Origin: an uncultured Pseudohongiella sp.
GTDB lineage: Bacteria; Pseudomonadota; Gammaproteobacteria; Pseudomonadales; Pseudohongiellaceae
DNA length: 64,000 bases
Direction of reading: 5' to 3'
Assembly: GCA_902597095.1 (NCBI GenBank)
Contig: CACJWK010000005.1
Location: 1 to 64,000, forward strand
This document shows positions 39,078-53,847 of this stretch, piece by piece. The notes under the pieces were generated by a model. That model saw only the letters and a list, made by a program, of their open reading frames with translations, was not told the DNA's origin and ran no database searches. Position 1 is the stretch's first letter. Every line of letters begins with the position of its first letter. The position numbers and the translations under genes are program-made.

Positions 39078-40256
39078 ATGCTTCGTCACGTTAATAAGCT
39101 TGTGGGCATTGTGCTAACGACCACTTTATCGACGGGTGTGCTTTCGCAGGACGTATACCAAAGCGCACATCATGATTATCGCGTGGTGCCGGTTGCCGAA
39201 GACCTGGTGCAACCATGGTCTATGGCGTGGCTGCCCAATGGTGACATGCTGATAACAGAAAAGCCTGGTCGGCTTCGCATGGTCCGTGATGGTCAGTTGT
39301 TGCCCGAAGCGATACCGGGAACTCCTGAGGTATTGTACAAAGGCCAAGGTGGTCTGTTTGAAGTCGTGCCACATCCTGACTTTAATGAGAACCAGTGGGT
39401 TTATCTGACTTTTGCCAAGCCAAATGCAAATGAGGTAGACGATGGTTCGACCACGGCAATTGCCCGCGGTCGACTCCAGGATGGCCGTCTGACGAACCTT
39501 GTTGAATTGTTCGCGGCGCAGGCTACTGGCTTCGGCCACTATGGTGGCAAGCTGGTCTTTGACGGTGAAGGCCACATGTTTCTGACTTTGGGGGATCGCC
39601 AGGACTTTTCATTTGGCGATCGAGAAGCGCTAATGGCCCATTCAGCTCAGGATCGGAGCAATCATGCGGGAGTTATTGTGCGCCTGAATGACGACGGAAC
39701 TGTGCCTGATGACAACCCGTTTGTCGGCGTGGACGGTGTCTTGCCCGAGATCTGGTCCTACGGTCATCGGAGTCCCCAAGGTTTGGCTATACATCCCATT
39801 ACAGGAGATTTGTGGGAATCTGAGCACGGACCTCAGGGTGGTGACGAGATCAACCTCATCGAGCCCGGCAACAACTATGGCTGGCCTGTGGCTGGCCGCG
39901 GTGTCAACTACGGAGCCTTTGGGCGGCCCATTCACGTTGGCATCAGTGAAGAGGGCATGACGAGCCCGATCAACTTCTGGGTGCCTTCCATTGCGACCTC
40001 GGGCCTGATGATCTACAACGGCGACAAATTCCCAATGTGGGTTGGAGATATTTTCTCCGGTGCGCTGGCTGGAGAGCAGCTAGCACGAGTTCATCTCGAC
40101 GATGAATATCGAAGCGTCGTTCTGGAAGAAACTTTGGCCTACAACATGGGCCGTATTCGCGACGTGAGACAGGGTCCTGACGGCTACATCTATCTAGCGA
40201 TCTCAGATCGGCAGGCCGGCTCGACCCCCATTGTCAGGCTGGAACCGGAAGACTAG
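39078..40256 (+). CDS. Soluble PQQ-dependent aldose sugar dehydrogenase-like protein
   Basis: A 392-residue exported six-bladed propeller (signal peptide ending near VLSQ) of the soluble glucose/aldose sugar dehydrogenase family (YliI-like). Motifs include LVQPWSMAWLPNGDMLITEKPGRLRMV, YKGQGGLFEVVPHPDF, GFGHYGGKLVFDGEGHMFLTLGD (with the catalytic-site His), GHRSPQGLAIHPITGDLWESEHGPQGGDEINLI and IYNGDKFP. Such enzymes oxidise aldoses in the periplasm with PQQ and calcium. AGGAG lies about nine bases before the ATG, and an intrinsic terminator follows. No PQQ synthesis genes are in the window. Confidence 0.88.
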   Translation: MLRHVNKLVGIVLTTTLSTGVLSQDVYQSAHHDYRVVPVAEDLVQPWSMAWLPNGDMLITEKPGRLRMVRDGQLLPEAIPGTPEVLYKGQGGLFEVVPHPDFNENQWVYLTFAKPNANEVDDGSTTAIARGRLQDGRLTNLVELFAAQATGFGHYGGKLVFDGEGHMFLTLGDRQDFSFGDREALMAHSAQDRSNHAGVIVRLNDDGTVPDDNPFVGVDGVLPEIWSYGHRSPQGLAIHPITGDLWESEHGPQGGDEINLIEPGNNYGWPVAGRGVNYGAFGRPIHVGISEEGMTSPINFWVPSIATSGLMIYNGDKFPMWVGDIFSGALAGEQLARVHLDDEYRSVVLEETLAYNMGRIRDVRQGPDGYIYLAISDRQAGSTPIVRLEPED

Positions 40257-47495: not shown

Positions 47496-48401
47496 TTACT
47501 CCGTCAAAAAGAGAGTCAGCTCCGCGCCCGCATCGTCAAGCGCTTGCAGATGGTTTCTGCCATCCAGCTTGTCTTTGAGGAAAGCCAGAACGAAACGCCC
47601 CAGAGCTGCTTTCCGCTGGCCACTGTTAGACACGAACATGTGGTCACCGCTGGCAAACTCGACATAGGTCTTGCTGCCGCCGATGGAGTCATAGAGCAGT
47701 TTGGCGTGCTCAGCGGGTGGCGCGACCTCGTCTTCGGCGCTGGCGATAATCATGGCAGGTACCGTCAGGCTGCTGTAATCACCGCTGAAAGACTGGCCGG
47801 GTTCACAGCAATACAGTGCCAGTGGGATGACTGCCTTGATGTCGTCTCCCATTTGCGTAGCGGCCACCATAGAGGCACCGCCACCCATGGAATGACCCAT
47901 TATCGCGATTTTTTCCGGATCAATTTTATTCGCCACGGGCGCGTCAGAGTTCTGGTTTTCTGACTTGATGAAGTCCACCGCTGCGATCAGTGCATCAGCC
48001 CGGGCAGCGAGTGCGTCAGTCGGTCTGTTGGTTTCGAGTATGAAGACTGTATATCCCAGAGATGCAAGGGCAGGTCCCCACCATTCATAGATAGATGCAG
48101 GAGCTCTGAAGCCGGGAACAAAGGCCACAGCGCCGTTAGGCGGATCGAAGCTCAGGGTTAACGGGTAGAAGACCATCGCTCCGGCGAATGCTTCGTTACT
48201 GACCTCGGGCTCATAGGTCCGTACCTCGTAGAGTCTTTCATCGAATTCCCGGCCGATCGTCAGACCGACTTGTCTGCCTTCTGGGCGGTAGCGGCCCTGG
48301 CTGTTGTCCTGTGCCAGCAGACTGAGGGGAGTAATCAGCAGGCCGACAATCAGGGTGGCGATACCTGCGCTTCGCAGGGATTTTTCTGGTAGCAGGACCA
48401 T
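47496..48401 (-). CDS. Secreted alpha/beta hydrolase of the PETase/cutinase-like (dienelactone hydrolase) group
   Basis: A 301-residue exported hydrolase (signal peptide GIATLIVGLLITPLSLLAQ). Its order of motifs follows bacterial polyester hydrolases: VFYPLTLSFDPPNGAVAFVPGFRAPASIYEWWGPALASLGYTVFILETN, the elbow IMGHSMGGGASM (Ser171), the acid ASAEDEVAPP (Asp224), and the histidine in SGDHMFVSNSG (His254). The oxyanion-site aromatic is Phe98, where PETase has Tyr87, and the elbow has His before Ser, as in cutinases. The extra disulfides of PETase are not present; a CC pair occurs at 198-199 instead. The substrate may be a polyester, lipid ester or other; this is unproven. Confidence 0.82.
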   Translation of the reverse strand: MVLLPEKSLRSAGIATLIVGLLITPLSLLAQDNSQGRYRPEGRQVGLTIGREFDERLYEVRTYEPEVSNEAFAGAMVFYPLTLSFDPPNGAVAFVPGFRAPASIYEWWGPALASLGYTVFILETNRPTDALAARADALIAAVDFIKSENQNSDAPVANKIDPEKIAIMGHSMGGGASMVAATQMGDDIKAVIPLALYCCEPGQSFSGDYSSLTVPAMIIASAEDEVAPPAEHAKLLYDSIGGSKTYVEFASGDHMFVSNSGQRKAALGRFVLAFLKDKLDGRNHLQALDDAGAELTLFLTE

Positions 48402-48645: not shown

Positions 48646-49443
48646 ATGAGTAAGCAAATTCGGGATCTTCGCCGGTCGAGGATCCGATTATTCTCAGTTA
48701 TCGTGACGCTGACCGCGTTGCCCTGCCTGAGTCAGGCACAGGAGTTAGGGGACCATCAATACACGTCCGAAGCCATTCAGGCGGGTCTGCGGGTCTATTC
48801 GAGGGAATGTGCACTTTGTCATGGTCCGCAGGGTGATCTCGTCAGCGGGATCAATCTGGCCCGGGGAGAGTTTCGCTCAGCACAATCAGACGATGATCTG
48901 AGAAGCGTCATCACGGAAGGTCGGGCGCAGGGGCAGATGCCGGCGTTTGATTTGCGAGAGTCCGAGCTGAGTGGGGTGATCGCTTATATCAGGGCCGGGC
49001 TTGATCCTGATGGTATTGCCATTCGCATCGGAGATGCGGTGCGCGGTCTGGCGCTTTTTCAGGGAAAGGGGGAATGCGCGAGTTGCCATCGGGTAAACGG
49101 AGTGGGTCCACGAACAGCCCCTGATCTGAGCGCGATTGGTGTTGAGCGCTCACCGGCCAACCTGCAGTTAAATCTGGTCGATCCGGCTGGGGCGATTCTG
49201 CCCATCAACCGTCCGGTCAGAATTGTGACCCGTAACGAAGAGACAATTATCGGACGGCGGCTGAATGAGGATACTTACACGGTTCAGCTTATCGATTCGA
49301 ATGAACGCTTGCGTTCACTAATTAAGGCCGATCTGGTGACTTATGAGATCAGCGAAGCGCCAAGCAAGGGGCCGACGAATCTGACTCCGGCAGAAGTGGC
49401 CGACGTCATTGCTTATCTGCTCACTTTGGATGGGGAGAGTTAG
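48646..49443 (+). CDS. Secreted two-domain c-type cytochrome
   Basis: A 265-residue exported protein (signal peptide IVTLTALPCLSQAQ) with two haem c sites: CALCH in YSRECALCHGPQGD and CASCH in KGECASCHRVNGVGP. The first domain has a methionine ligand candidate in GQMPAFD. The second has no methionine anywhere after its CXXCH, so its sixth ligand must differ or be absent. It ends 2 bases before the PQQ dehydrogenase gene and very likely carries electrons from that enzyme towards the terminal oxidase. Confidence 0.88.
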   Translation: MSKQIRDLRRSRIRLFSVIVTLTALPCLSQAQELGDHQYTSEAIQAGLRVYSRECALCHGPQGDLVSGINLARGEFRSAQSDDDLRSVITEGRAQGQMPAFDLRESELSGVIAYIRAGLDPDGIAIRIGDAVRGLALFQGKGECASCHRVNGVGPRTAPDLSAIGVERSPANLQLNLVDPAGAILPINRPVRIVTRNEETIIGRRLNEDTYTVQLIDSNERLRSLIKADLVTYEISEAPSKGPTNLTPAEVADVIAYLLTLDGES

Positions 49444-49445
49444 GG

Positions 49446-51131
49446 ATGAATACTTTGAATGCGGGAATAGCTAAACTCGTCGAATCTGCTTCAAAAGGAT
49501 GCCTGGCTCTCTTGTTGGTGGGTCAGTCCACATATCTTGCCAATGCTCAGGTCTCTTACGACCGCATTCTTAACGCTGCCGATGAGCCGCAGAATTGGCT
49601 GACCTACAATGGCGGCTACATGAGCCAGCGCTATAGCCTGCTTGATCAGATCAATCACGAAAATGTTAGGAATCTTGAACTCAAGTGGGTGCTGCAGAAT
49701 CAGGTGTTCGGTGCGTGGCAATCGAACCCTGTAGTGGTTGACGGCATCATGTATGTGACCGAGCGCCCGAACAGCGTTATGGCGGTTGATGCGATCACCG
49801 GCAGGGTATTCTGGAAATACGTGCATACGCCTGATGAGAGAGCCCGGGTGTGTTGTGGCGCAAATAATCGGGGGGTCGCGGTTCTGGATGATCGGGTGTT
49901 TATGGGTACTCTTGATGCCCGGCTGATTGCGCTCGATCGGATCAATGGTGAAGTGTTATGGGACGCTGAAGTAGGTGACGTGGCACTGGCTAATTCAGTG
50001 ACTATGGCGCCTCTGGCGGTAAAAGACAAAGTTCTCGTTGGTATTGGGGGTGGGGAATTCGGAATACGAGGCTACGTTGCTGCTTACTATGCAGACACCG
50101 GGGAGCAGGCCTGGAAAACCTATACCATCCCGGGCCCGGGTGAGCCCGGTCACGATTCCTGGCAGGACGATGACTGGATGCATGGCGGAGCACCAGTATG
50201 GATAACCGGGTCATTCGATGCAGAACAGAATCAGGTTTATTGGGGGGTCGGAAATCCCGGTCCTGATTGGAACAACGAACAGCGCCCAGGTGACAATCTT
50301 TACTCTGACTCGGTTATCGCGTTGGATGTCGATACGGGCGAGCTGGAATGGTATTTTCAATTTACGCCGAATGACCCTTACGACTATGACGCTGTTCAGG
50401 TGCCGGTGCTCGCGGATCTGAATTGGAACGGCATGCCCAAGAAGGTGATGATGTGGGCGAATCGTAACGGCTATTTCTATGTCCTCGACCGGACATCTGG
50501 TGAATGTCTGGTTGCCAAGCCCTATGTGCGGGTGAACTGGTCCAGTGGTCTGGATGAAAACTGCCGGCCGATCATCACGCCGCAGCCAGATGGTATGCCA
50601 ACCTATCCGGGAAATCAGGGCGGGACAAACTGGTACCCGCCTTCTTTCAGTCCACGTACTGGCCTCTTTTATTTCAGTGCCTGGGAGGATTACGCAACGA
50701 TTTATCGCTCGGAAGAGCAGGAATATACCGCGGGCAGGGCCTTTCTGGGAGGTGGGTTCAGTGTCCTGGCGCCGGCGCCGGATGCACCGACGATAGGCAT
50801 TGGCCGCACTAACCCGGTAAATAACTGGACAGATGAAGTCGGGCACGCCTCGCTTAAGGCGATGGATCCGAATACCGGGGAAGAAGTCTGGGAGTTCGAA
50901 CAGTATGACGTCAGCGACAGTGGTATGCTGACCACAGTGACTGATCTTCTGATCACCGGCGGCCGGGAAGGGTACTTCCACGTGCTCGACGCAAAAAGCG
51001 GCGAATTGCTCTATCACAAGAATCTGGGTGGGCAGATCGTCATGGCACCGGTGACTTACATGGTGGATGGCGTGCAATATGTCTCCATCATTTCGGGCAA
51101 CAGTCTGTTTACTTTCGCGCTAAAAGGCTGA
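49446..51131 (+). CDS. PQQ-dependent alcohol dehydrogenase (methanol/ethanol type, lanthanide-type metal site)
   Basis: A 561-residue exported quinoprotein with eight W-motif blades. Features are the vicinal disulfide VCCGANNRG (Cys136-Cys137), the metal ligand Glu204 in GGGEFGIRG, Asn270 in WGVGNPGPDWNNEQRPGDN, and the catalytic Asp313 in NDPYDYDAVQ. Two residues later is a second aspartate, Asp315. In characterised XoxF and related enzymes this extra Asp marks rare-earth (lanthanide) dependence, whereas calcium enzymes have Ala, Ser or Thr there. The substrate is probably a primary alcohol or aldehyde. It follows the dihaem cytochrome by 2 bases, as an enzyme-acceptor pair. No pqq biosynthesis genes are seen. 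Confidence 0.9.
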   Translation: MNTLNAGIAKLVESASKGCLALLLVGQSTYLANAQVSYDRILNAADEPQNWLTYNGGYMSQRYSLLDQINHENVRNLELKWVLQNQVFGAWQSNPVVVDGIMYVTERPNSVMAVDAITGRVFWKYVHTPDERARVCCGANNRGVAVLDDRVFMGTLDARLIALDRINGEVLWDAEVGDVALANSVTMAPLAVKDKVLVGIGGGEFGIRGYVAAYYADTGEQAWKTYTIPGPGEPGHDSWQDDDWMHGGAPVWITGSFDAEQNQVYWGVGNPGPDWNNEQRPGDNLYSDSVIALDVDTGELEWYFQFTPNDPYDYDAVQVPVLADLNWNGMPKKVMMWANRNGYFYVLDRTSGECLVAKPYVRVNWSSGLDENCRPIITPQPDGMPTYPGNQGGTNWYPPSFSPRTGLFYFSAWEDYATIYRSEEQEYTAGRAFLGGGFSVLAPAPDAPTIGIGRTNPVNNWTDEVGHASLKAMDPNTGEEVWEFEQYDVSDSGMLTTVTDLLITGGREGYFHVLDAKSGELLYHKNLGGQIVMAPVTYMVDGVQYVSIISGNSLFTFALKG

Positions 51132-51225
51132 GTACCGGGTACTGGTGATAGGGCTTCAGCGCTATGGTGATAGGGGCCTGTGGGTCCCGCCAGCACCGCG
51201 TCTGCTTTTCAACCCGAGGGTCTGT

Positions 51226-51678
51226 ATGTCAGAAGCACTTTGGGACAGAACCCACCCCTTTGTCATTCCGGTCACTGCGAGTGCCCGGCATGTCGATGGA
51301 TATGGTCATGTGTCCACTCACAATTATGTGCAGTGGATGATCGATTGCGCGTTTGCGCATTCGGCTTATCTGGGGCTGGATGCAGTGACCTGTAAAACAA
51401 TGGCCCGTGGTATGGCCGCGATCAGTTTCGACGTACAGCTTTTGGGCTCAGCCTATGAAGGAGATCAGCTTGAAGTTGCGACCTGGATCGTCGATCCCGA
51501 TGGGCGAGTCAGATTGGCCCGGCAGTTTCAGATATGTCATCCGGAATCTGGCCGGACGCTGGCACGCGGCCATTTCAAATTCGTCTGTACTAACCTCGAT
51601 ACGGGCAAGGCCGTACGCATGCCGCAAATCTTCAAAGAGACTTATGTGATGGTCAGCGAGCCGTTGGTTTCCGAGTGA
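51226..51678 (+). CDS. Hotdog-fold acyl-CoA thioesterase
   Basis: A 150-residue single hotdog domain of the 4-hydroxybenzoyl-CoA thioesterase / YbgC type: RHVDGYGHVSTHNYVQWMIDCAFAHSAYLG (Asp-Gly-x-Gly-His in the active-site helix region), followed by AISFDVQLLGSAYEGDQLEVATWI. The ORF-track start is 27 codons upstream; ATG 51226 has GAGGG five bases before it and starts the domain normally. It lies between two quinoprotein genes and may hydrolyse acyl-CoA products of alcohol oxidation; this link is inferred. Confidence 0.85.
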   Translation: MSEALWDRTHPFVIPVTASARHVDGYGHVSTHNYVQWMIDCAFAHSAYLGLDAVTCKTMARGMAAISFDVQLLGSAYEGDQLEVATWIVDPDGRVRLARQFQICHPESGRTLARGHFKFVCTNLDTGKAVRMPQIFKETYVMVSEPLVSE

Positions 51679-51828: not shown

Positions 51829-53847
51829 ATGCAAGCTATTGATTTAAGGAAGGTTTTACTCACCTTTCTTACGCTTATGAGTCCGGGGCTCACCTCAGCT
51901 CAAGACGCTGACCAATGGTTCACGCTTGGCAATGACTTTGCGCATACTCGCTACACTACAGCTGACGAGCTGTCGCCGGAAAACTTCGCGGATCTGGAAA
52001 TGGCCTGGGAGTGGGATGGTGCCAGCTTCGGGGCAGTAAGCGGCCGTTCCACGCCGTCTTTGATCGACGGTCTGCTTTATACGGTGGCCGGCTACAACCG
52101 CCATGTCATCGCCATCGATCCGAAGACCGGTGAAACCGTCTGGTCCTATCGCGAGCCAAAAACCCCGCGCGCGGCATATTCCATGCGGGCCGACTATGGT
52201 AAAGGCGTCGCCTTTGGCTACATTGATGGACGGGGCGTGGTGCTGATTGTGTCTCCGGGCTTTTTCCTGACGGCGCTTGATGCCAAGACAGGGGTGCCGC
52301 TCGATGATTGGGGTGCGCCGGTTGGCGTGGACGGATTCCCGGAAAGCGGTGTCGTGGACATGCTGAAAGATCTGGGTCATCCCTACGACCCCTATGAAGG
52401 CATCCCGCTTGAGACCGGATATATCACGTCTTCCTCTCCGCCCATCGTGGTGAATGACACCATTGTGGTGGGCAACTCTGCGGAACAGGGCTACCACCAG
52501 GCGCGCATAGAAAATGTTCCCGGCGATATCCTCGCCTATGATCTGCGCACCGGCGATTTCAAATGGAAATTCAATGTCATTCCTAAGCCCGGAGAATACG
52601 GCCACGAAACCTGGGAAAACGATGCCTGGGAATGGACCGGAGACGTGTCTTCCTGGGCGCCCCTCTCGGCTGATCCGGAAAACGACTTGGTCTACGTTCC
52701 GACCAACAGCGCGACCATCGATTACTACGGGGGTTTTCGCCCGGGCGATAATCTCTACGGTGCGAGTATCATTGCGCTCAACGCCAGTACCGGTGAGCGC
52801 GCGTGGCACTTTCAGTTCGTCCATCACGAAATCTGGAACTTTGATACGCCGACAGCGCCTGTGCTGATGGATCTCAGCGTAGACGGGCAGGAGATTCCTG
52901 CTGTGGTGCAGGCGACCAAGCAGGGCTGGTTGTACGCCTTCAACCGCCTCACCGGTGAGCCGGTCTGGCCGATTGAGGAACGTGCGGTTCCGGCATCAAT
53001 CGTGCCGGGAGAGGTTCTTTCCCCTACGCAACCCCACGTGACCTGGCCAGAACCCTATTCCATGCAGGGAATCGGTGAAGAGGATCTGCTGGATTTCACG
53101 CCTGAGCTGAAGGAGCAGTCACTGGCTACCATGGAAGACTATGTGATGGGGGGGCTATTTAATCCACCGATACACGCTGACAATCCCATGGGTAAGTATG
53201 CGGCCATGAACTGTCCCGGCGGGGCGGGTGGCGTGAACATCACTTCACCGCCGGTGGCTGACCCTGTGAACAATGTCTTTTACCTGTCAGAGCACACCGC
53301 GTGTTTTGCCTTGCGGCTGATTCCGGGCGAGGAGGCTGATCTGCTGTTCCCGAACTCGACCGGCACAACTACCGCGCAATATGCTAATGGCGTGCCCGGC
53401 GCCACCGCGCGGCCTCCGCGCCATCCGAGCGGCCTGCCAATCTGGAAACCGCCCTATAGCACGATCGTCGCCTATGATATGGACACCGGTGAGAAGAAAT
53501 TTACTGTACCTACCGGTGAAACGCCGCAGCGCTATAAGGACGCCTTTGAACGCGCGGGGGTCGCGGAATCAGTCTACGGTAATACCGGTACCGGTGCTCT
53601 GGTGCCAATGGTCGTAACGCCTACCATGCTGGTGTATTCCGACCAGGCCTCCGACGGTACCCCTATGCTGTGGGCTCTGGACAAAGATACCGGCGAGATT
53701 GCGGCCAAGATGGAAGCGCCCGCTCGCTCAAGCTACGGTATGAGCAGTTGGGTGCACGAAGGGCATCAGTACATCATGCTGCAGACCAGCTCCAAGTTGA
53801 CCGCGCTGGCTCTGCCTGCTGCTCAGGCGGAAAGTGGGGCACACTGA
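51829..53847 (+). CDS. Secreted PQQ-binding-like quinoprotein (mGDH-related) with Asn at the catalytic Asp position
   Basis: A 672-residue exported quinoprotein-fold enzyme (signal peptide ending near TSAQ). Repeats of the W-motif type (AIDPKTGETVWSYREP, ALNASTGERAWHFQFVHHEIW, AYDMDTGEKKF) form the propeller. At the site where membrane glucose dehydrogenase has WDMD it reads HHEIWNFDTPTAPVL, so the catalytic Asp is replaced by Asn337 (AAC codon); Asp339 remains. No vicinal cysteine pair and no cytochrome domain are present. AGGAG lies six bases before the ATG. Some relatives may share the Asn, so activity cannot be ruled out. A terminator follows. Confidence 0.82.
   Translation: MQAIDLRKVLLTFLTLMSPGLTSAQDADQWFTLGNDFAHTRYTTADELSPENFADLEMAWEWDGASFGAVSGRSTPSLIDGLLYTVAGYNRHVIAIDPKTGETVWSYREPKTPRAAYSMRADYGKGVAFGYIDGRGVVLIVSPGFFLTALDAKTGVPLDDWGAPVGVDGFPESGVVDMLKDLGHPYDPYEGIPLETGYITSSSPPIVVNDTIVVGNSAEQGYHQARIENVPGDILAYDLRTGDFKWKFNVIPKPGEYGHETWENDAWEWTGDVSSWAPLSADPENDLVYVPTNSATIDYYGGFRPGDNLYGASIIALNASTGERAWHFQFVHHEIWNFDTPTAPVLMDLSVDGQEIPAVVQATKQGWLYAFNRLTGEPVWPIEERAVPASIVPGEVLSPTQPHVTWPEPYSMQGIGEEDLLDFTPELKEQSLATMEDYVMGGLFNPPIHADNPMGKYAAMNCPGGAGGVNITSPPVADPVNNVFYLSEHTACFALRLIPGEEADLLFPNSTGTTTAQYANGVPGATARPPRHPSGLPIWKPPYSTIVAYDMDTGEKKFTVPTGETPQRYKDAFERAGVAESVYGNTGTGALVPMVVTPTMLVYSDQASDGTPMLWALDKDTGEIAAKMEAPARSSYGMSSWVHEGHQYIMLQTSSKLTALALPAAQAESGAH

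Follow-up and report, generated by a model that had tools for sequence, protein, structure and literature searches.

A short PQQ dehydrogenase with a predicted lanthanide-type metal site, encoded beside a dihaem cytochrome c in an uncultured Pseudohongiella

The lanthanide enzymes confirmed biochemically so far are the XoxF methanol dehydrogenases and the type 2b alcohol dehydrogenases (PMC11996626). In the marine survey of Voutsinos et al. (2025, ISME J, PMC11996626), 61% of PQQ dehydrogenases carried the D-x-D motif, and genomes of the Pseudomonadales group UBA9145 encoded up to 70 such enzymes each; thus, the general idea of an ocean-wide occurrence of D-x-D dehydrogenases, with dozens in some genomes, has already been published. 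What we add here is a complete ligand set, found in a separate group of short enzymes that lack a C-terminal loop and have a constant dihaem partner. The gene that led us to this group lies in a window of 64,000 nucleotides, which is the whole stretch of DNA analysed (contig CACJWK010000005.1, uncultured Pseudohongiella sp.):

49446..51131, plus strand: short PQQ alcohol dehydrogenase of predicted lanthanide type, 561 aa, ATG start

The open reading frame scored 544.3 bits against NCBIfam TIGR03075 (curated cut-off 480.05), matched PF01011 and contained the PQQ-site residues required for the TIGR03075 family (vicinal Cys, Arg and Trp). Judged by these matches, it belongs to the methanol/ethanol family of PQQ dehydrogenases. 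By inspection, the protein probably begins with a signal peptide (ending in LLLVGQSTYLANA, followed by Q). Among solved structures PedH was the best match in the sequence search (E = 2.4e-97), and it was also the top fold match of an AlphaFold2 model of the protein. The model, obtained with 30 close sequences, had a mean pLDDT of 69.6 and a pTM of 0.75; confidence was low across residues 309-320 around Asp315, with a mean pLDDT of 58 at residues 311-320. We therefore regard the model as adequate for the fold, but too uncertain for the geometry of the metal site. The residues of the site were read from the sequence and the alignment:

50055..50057, plus strand: codon of Glu204, metal ligand equivalent to MxaF Glu177 (sequence and MAFFT alignment)
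50253..50255, plus strand: codon of Asn270, metal ligand equivalent to MxaF Asn261 (sequence and MAFFT alignment)
50382..50384, plus strand: codon of Asp313, catalytic Asp equivalent to MxaF Asp303 (sequence and MAFFT alignment)
50388..50390, plus strand: codon of Asp315, the additional Asp of lanthanide enzymes, MxaF 303+2 (sequence and alignment)
49851..49856, plus strand: codons of Cys136-Cys137, position of the vicinal disulphide over the PQQ plane (alignment)

The preliminary description of this DNA had proposed that Glu204, Asn270, Asp313 and Asp315 (DYD) form a lanthanide-type set, and the alignment bore this out. The four residues, located in GGGEFGIR, GVGNPGPD and NDPYDYDAV, aligned with the ligands of PedH, XoxF1, XoxF2 and XoxF5, all of them lanthanide enzymes, so that the enzyme possesses the Glu, the Asn, the catalytic Asp and the Asp at +2 that together make up a lanthanide-type site. 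The +2 position of the calcium enzymes is occupied by Ala in MxaF, Ser in ExaA and Thr in ADH-IIB and qhEDH; the MxaF and ExaA query letters were verified against the respective PDB entries. All four residues were unchanged in 30/30 aligned family members (the others being 69-98% identical to the query), which excludes chance. Cys136, Cys137, Arg142, Trp252, Arg340 and Asn395 were likewise invariant in these 30 members; a further orthologue, L023, had ambiguous bases at the positions of Glu204 and Cys136.

The metal site is thus likely to have been built for a trivalent lanthanide. It is rather unlikely that the enzyme is metal-promiscuous or works mainly with calcium or magnesium, with calcium filling the site in seawater even though Asp315 is present. 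Such a reading draws on the membrane glucose dehydrogenase, which has D-x-D and yet functions with Mg and Ca and accepts several divalent metals, and on the concentrations in seawater, ~1e-2 M for calcium as opposed to ~1e-11 M for lanthanides (PMC11996626). However, the site has Glu204 and Asn270 as well, as in PedH and XoxF, whereas the +2 residue of the calcium relatives is A, S or T, and those XoxF and type 2b enzymes with D-x-D that have been assayed need lanthanides (PMC11996626). Since the calcium-type PedE, which lacks the extra Asp, retains 60-80% of its activity in lanthanides (PMC10409515), sequence alone is not fully decisive on the metal. We found no assay or metal analysis of short-group members in the literature surveyed.

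The source genome (77% complete) provided a comparison of its own, as we found 18 PQQ propeller ORFs in it. In a single alignment, in which the most divergent paralogues are uncertain, six of these had the full E/N/D/D set (the 561-aa protein included), six had D-x-D but not the Glu/Asn pair, and the other six had N-x-D. The second class is a further point in favour of the calcium reading, as it indicates that D-x-D is unspecific. Because paralogues from the same genome have D-x-D without the Glu and Asn ligands, D-x-D alone appears to be a weak marker, and the full four-residue set a better one. In two of the six full-set proteins, L009 (6016-7674) and L012 (1492-3243), the vicinal cysteine pair over PQQ was absent. 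Another protein of the same genome (contig C20, L013, 4271-6418) was quinohaemoprotein-like and combined a C-terminal CxxCH with the complete E/N/D/D set, in contrast to the D-x-T of the calcium quinohaemoproteins compared.

A maximum-likelihood tree of 51 sequences was calculated under LG+C20+F+G4 (support given as bootstrap/SH-aLRT). The orthologues of the 561-aa enzyme formed a group with 100/100 support, nested in a broader short group (100/96), which further included the paralogues L009 and L010 from the same genome, a Sinorhizobium fredii protein (L057) and L064, which comes from another gammaproteobacterial family. XoxF/MxaF, ExaA/PedH and the quinohaemoproteins made up the other groups of the tree. 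Joining the short group with ExaA/PedH was rejected at AU p = 0.0012 and joining it with XoxF/MxaF at AU p = 0.0029, p-values that are somewhat optimistic, as the groups were named after the first tree had been seen. No characterised member of the short-bodied branch was present among the structures compared.

Gammaproteobacterial MAGs, Pseudohongiella-like and others, were the sources of the named orthologues, together with Gemmatimonadetes/Longimicrobiales. An orthologue of at least 79% identity was present in 23 of the 37 genomes of the genus of the window, and none was found in 273 other sampled gammaproteobacterial genomes, where the best match reached 49%. The enzyme had initially been described as possibly an uncommon lanthanide enzyme type, to be placed in a phylogeny. 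The tree and the AU tests do put it outside both XoxF/MxaF and ExaF/PedH; as to rarity, the description does not hold within its own genus.

The reduced length of the protein (561 residues), also remarked on at the outset, proved to be real. Two regions account for the differences in the alignment:

51093..51131, plus strand: C-terminus without the closing loop, which has ~22 residues in PedH and ~38 in MxaF (alignment)
50772..50828, plus strand: orthologue-specific insertion, residues 443-461, PAPDAPTIGIGRTNPVNNW (alignment)

In the members of the short group the last propeller strand leads directly to the final strand, and the closing loop is absent throughout. The insertion is common to the query and its orthologues, several positions inside it were invariant in the 30-member alignment, and PedH, ExaA and the nearest paralogues do not have it. 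Loss of the loop together with the insertion probably reshapes the substrate entrance.

The surroundings of the gene were then compared among the orthologous loci:

48646..49443, plus strand: dihaem cytochrome c of 265 aa with two CxxCH motifs, at residues 55 and 144
51145..51678, plus strand: 4HBT-like thioesterase, next downstream gene, conserved in the closest relatives only
51829..53847, plus strand: second quinoprotein with a PQQ propeller, 672 aa, conserved neighbour in close relatives
47496..48401, minus strand: PETase-like alpha/beta hydrolase (PF12740), divergently oriented, neighbour retained in the Pseudohongiella-like group

The cytochrome gene ends 2 bp before the start of the dehydrogenase. 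Its pairing with the dehydrogenase, pointed out in the preliminary description, was constant: a homologue lay immediately upstream in 33/33 assessable orthologous loci (36 in total, three of them truncated or fragmentary and outside this count). Related dihaem genes were found upstream of the more distant members L009, L010 and L064, and in the S. fredii locus L057 (5380-7563), which is on a plasmid, a cytochrome c domain with CxxCH at 127 was fused N-terminally to a short D-x-D dehydrogenase. The upstream pairing, the related dihaem genes and this fusion support the dihaem cytochrome c as the probable electron acceptor of the 561-aa enzyme.

The remaining neighbours were less constant. The PETase-like hydrolase gene, divergent from the cytochrome gene, was kept in 20 related loci, and across phyla we found no catabolic gene besides the cytochrome adjoining the dehydrogenase. 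A guess at the substrate from the neighbours was rejected, as the hydrolase, the thioesterase and the second quinoprotein adjoin the gene in close relatives only. In the second quinoprotein, and likewise in its orthologues, Asn replaces the catalytic Asp and is followed by an Asp at +2 (HHEIWNFD); the protein may have no activity or may work by a different mechanism. Elsewhere in the window, 39078-40256 encodes a protein resembling soluble glucose/sorbosone dehydrogenases (GSDH, PF07995), which could be a further PQQ enzyme. A promoter scan returned one weak match, and shuffled sequences gave more.

The genus of the window carries many other PQQ dehydrogenases and, from this load and from its relatives, is probably the UBA9145 group. 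The source genome has pqqB, pqqD, pqqE and pqqC in one cluster; genus-wide, pqqE was found in 10/37 genomes and pqqC in 11/37. No pqqC, pqqD or pqqE was found in G010, G011, G686, G687 and G689 (97-100% complete), all of which kept PQQ-dehydrogenase candidates (21-75 each at a first look), and three of which (G010, G011 and G687) have an orthologue of the window enzyme despite the missing genes. This suggests that these five genomes probably depend on imported PQQ. For G680, the absence of PQQ synthesis was dropped because a PqqD match was present.

The scarcity of pqqC and pqqE, which are missing from most genomes of the genus, could also be taken to mean that the protein has lost PQQ binding and is an "empty" quinoprotein, a reading suggested by the name of an Acidobacteria group in NCBIfam (Acido-empty-quinoprotein group A, TIGR04528). 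The match to this family reached 486.5 bits, under the curated cut-off of 650, and membership was rejected. We consider a loss of PQQ binding very improbable, as the residues for PQQ and the metal do not vary within the family, the source genome has a pqq cluster, and PQQ import is common among Gram-negative bacteria that do not make PQQ (PMC12124388).

Taken together, the protein is best read as a periplasmic PQQ dehydrogenase that uses a lanthanide and feeds the dihaem cytochrome c, a reading that we hold with good though not full confidence. We infer that it is catalytically active, that it passes electrons to the cytochrome encoded upstream, and that its substrate is other than methanol. 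In the proposed mechanism, the metal would polarise the C5 carbonyl of PQQ and Asp313 would remove the substrate proton, so that an alcohol or aldehyde would deliver two electrons to PQQ. The dihaem cytochrome c would then reoxidise the resulting PQQH2 in single-electron steps and hand the electrons on to a terminal oxidase. More tentatively, the short group may represent a separate type of lanthanide dehydrogenase: without the loop, larger alcohols or aldehydes could reach the active site, and the dihaem cytochrome c, encoded in one operon with the enzyme, would stand in for the usual monohaem acceptor. As a third separate group that combines a full lanthanide site with an altered body plan and a constant dihaem partner, these enzymes would be a target for testing whether lanthanide use does extend across the many predicted marine enzymes, and whether the four ligands are a better predictor of it than D-x-D alone.

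Of the known systems, PedH/ExaF (type 2b) shares with the 561-aa enzyme the fold, the family, the E/N/D/D site and the single-domain soluble form. Among solved structures PedH comes nearest to it in both sequence and fold, and the two have Gln at the position of MxaF Glu55. These similarities could suggest a diverged but otherwise ordinary ExaF/PedH ethanol dehydrogenase, which we regard as highly improbable: identity to PedH is just 33-34%, the C-terminal loop is absent and the 443-461 insertion present, the cytochrome alongside is dihaem and scores far under the PedF cut-off, and the enzyme belongs to a clade distinct from PedH and ExaA (AU p = 0.0012, to be read as above). The XoxF methanol dehydrogenases have the same E/N/D/D site and vicinal cysteines; in contrast to them, the 561-aa enzyme lacks the C-terminal loop, has a dihaem cytochrome alongside in place of XoxG and lies outside the XoxF1/XoxF2/XoxF5 clade (AU p = 0.0029, with the same reservation), so identity with XoxF was rejected. 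The type II quinohaemoproteins ADH-IIB and qhEDH resemble it in the fold, in the Glu and Asn ligands and in electron transfer via cytochrome c, but they carry D-x-T at the calcium site, have their haem domain fused on and sit in a separate clade (100/100), whereas the 561-aa sequence reads D-x-D and contains no CxxCH; this assignment was rejected as well. The D-x-D dehydrogenases of UBA9145 and other marine MAGs (PMC11996626) likewise come from marine Pseudomonadales with many lanthanide-motif PQQ dehydrogenases. They probably come from the same group of organisms and may belong to the same subfamily, and the classification of that study, based on D-x-D and tree position, may already name the subfamily to which the 561-aa enzyme belongs.
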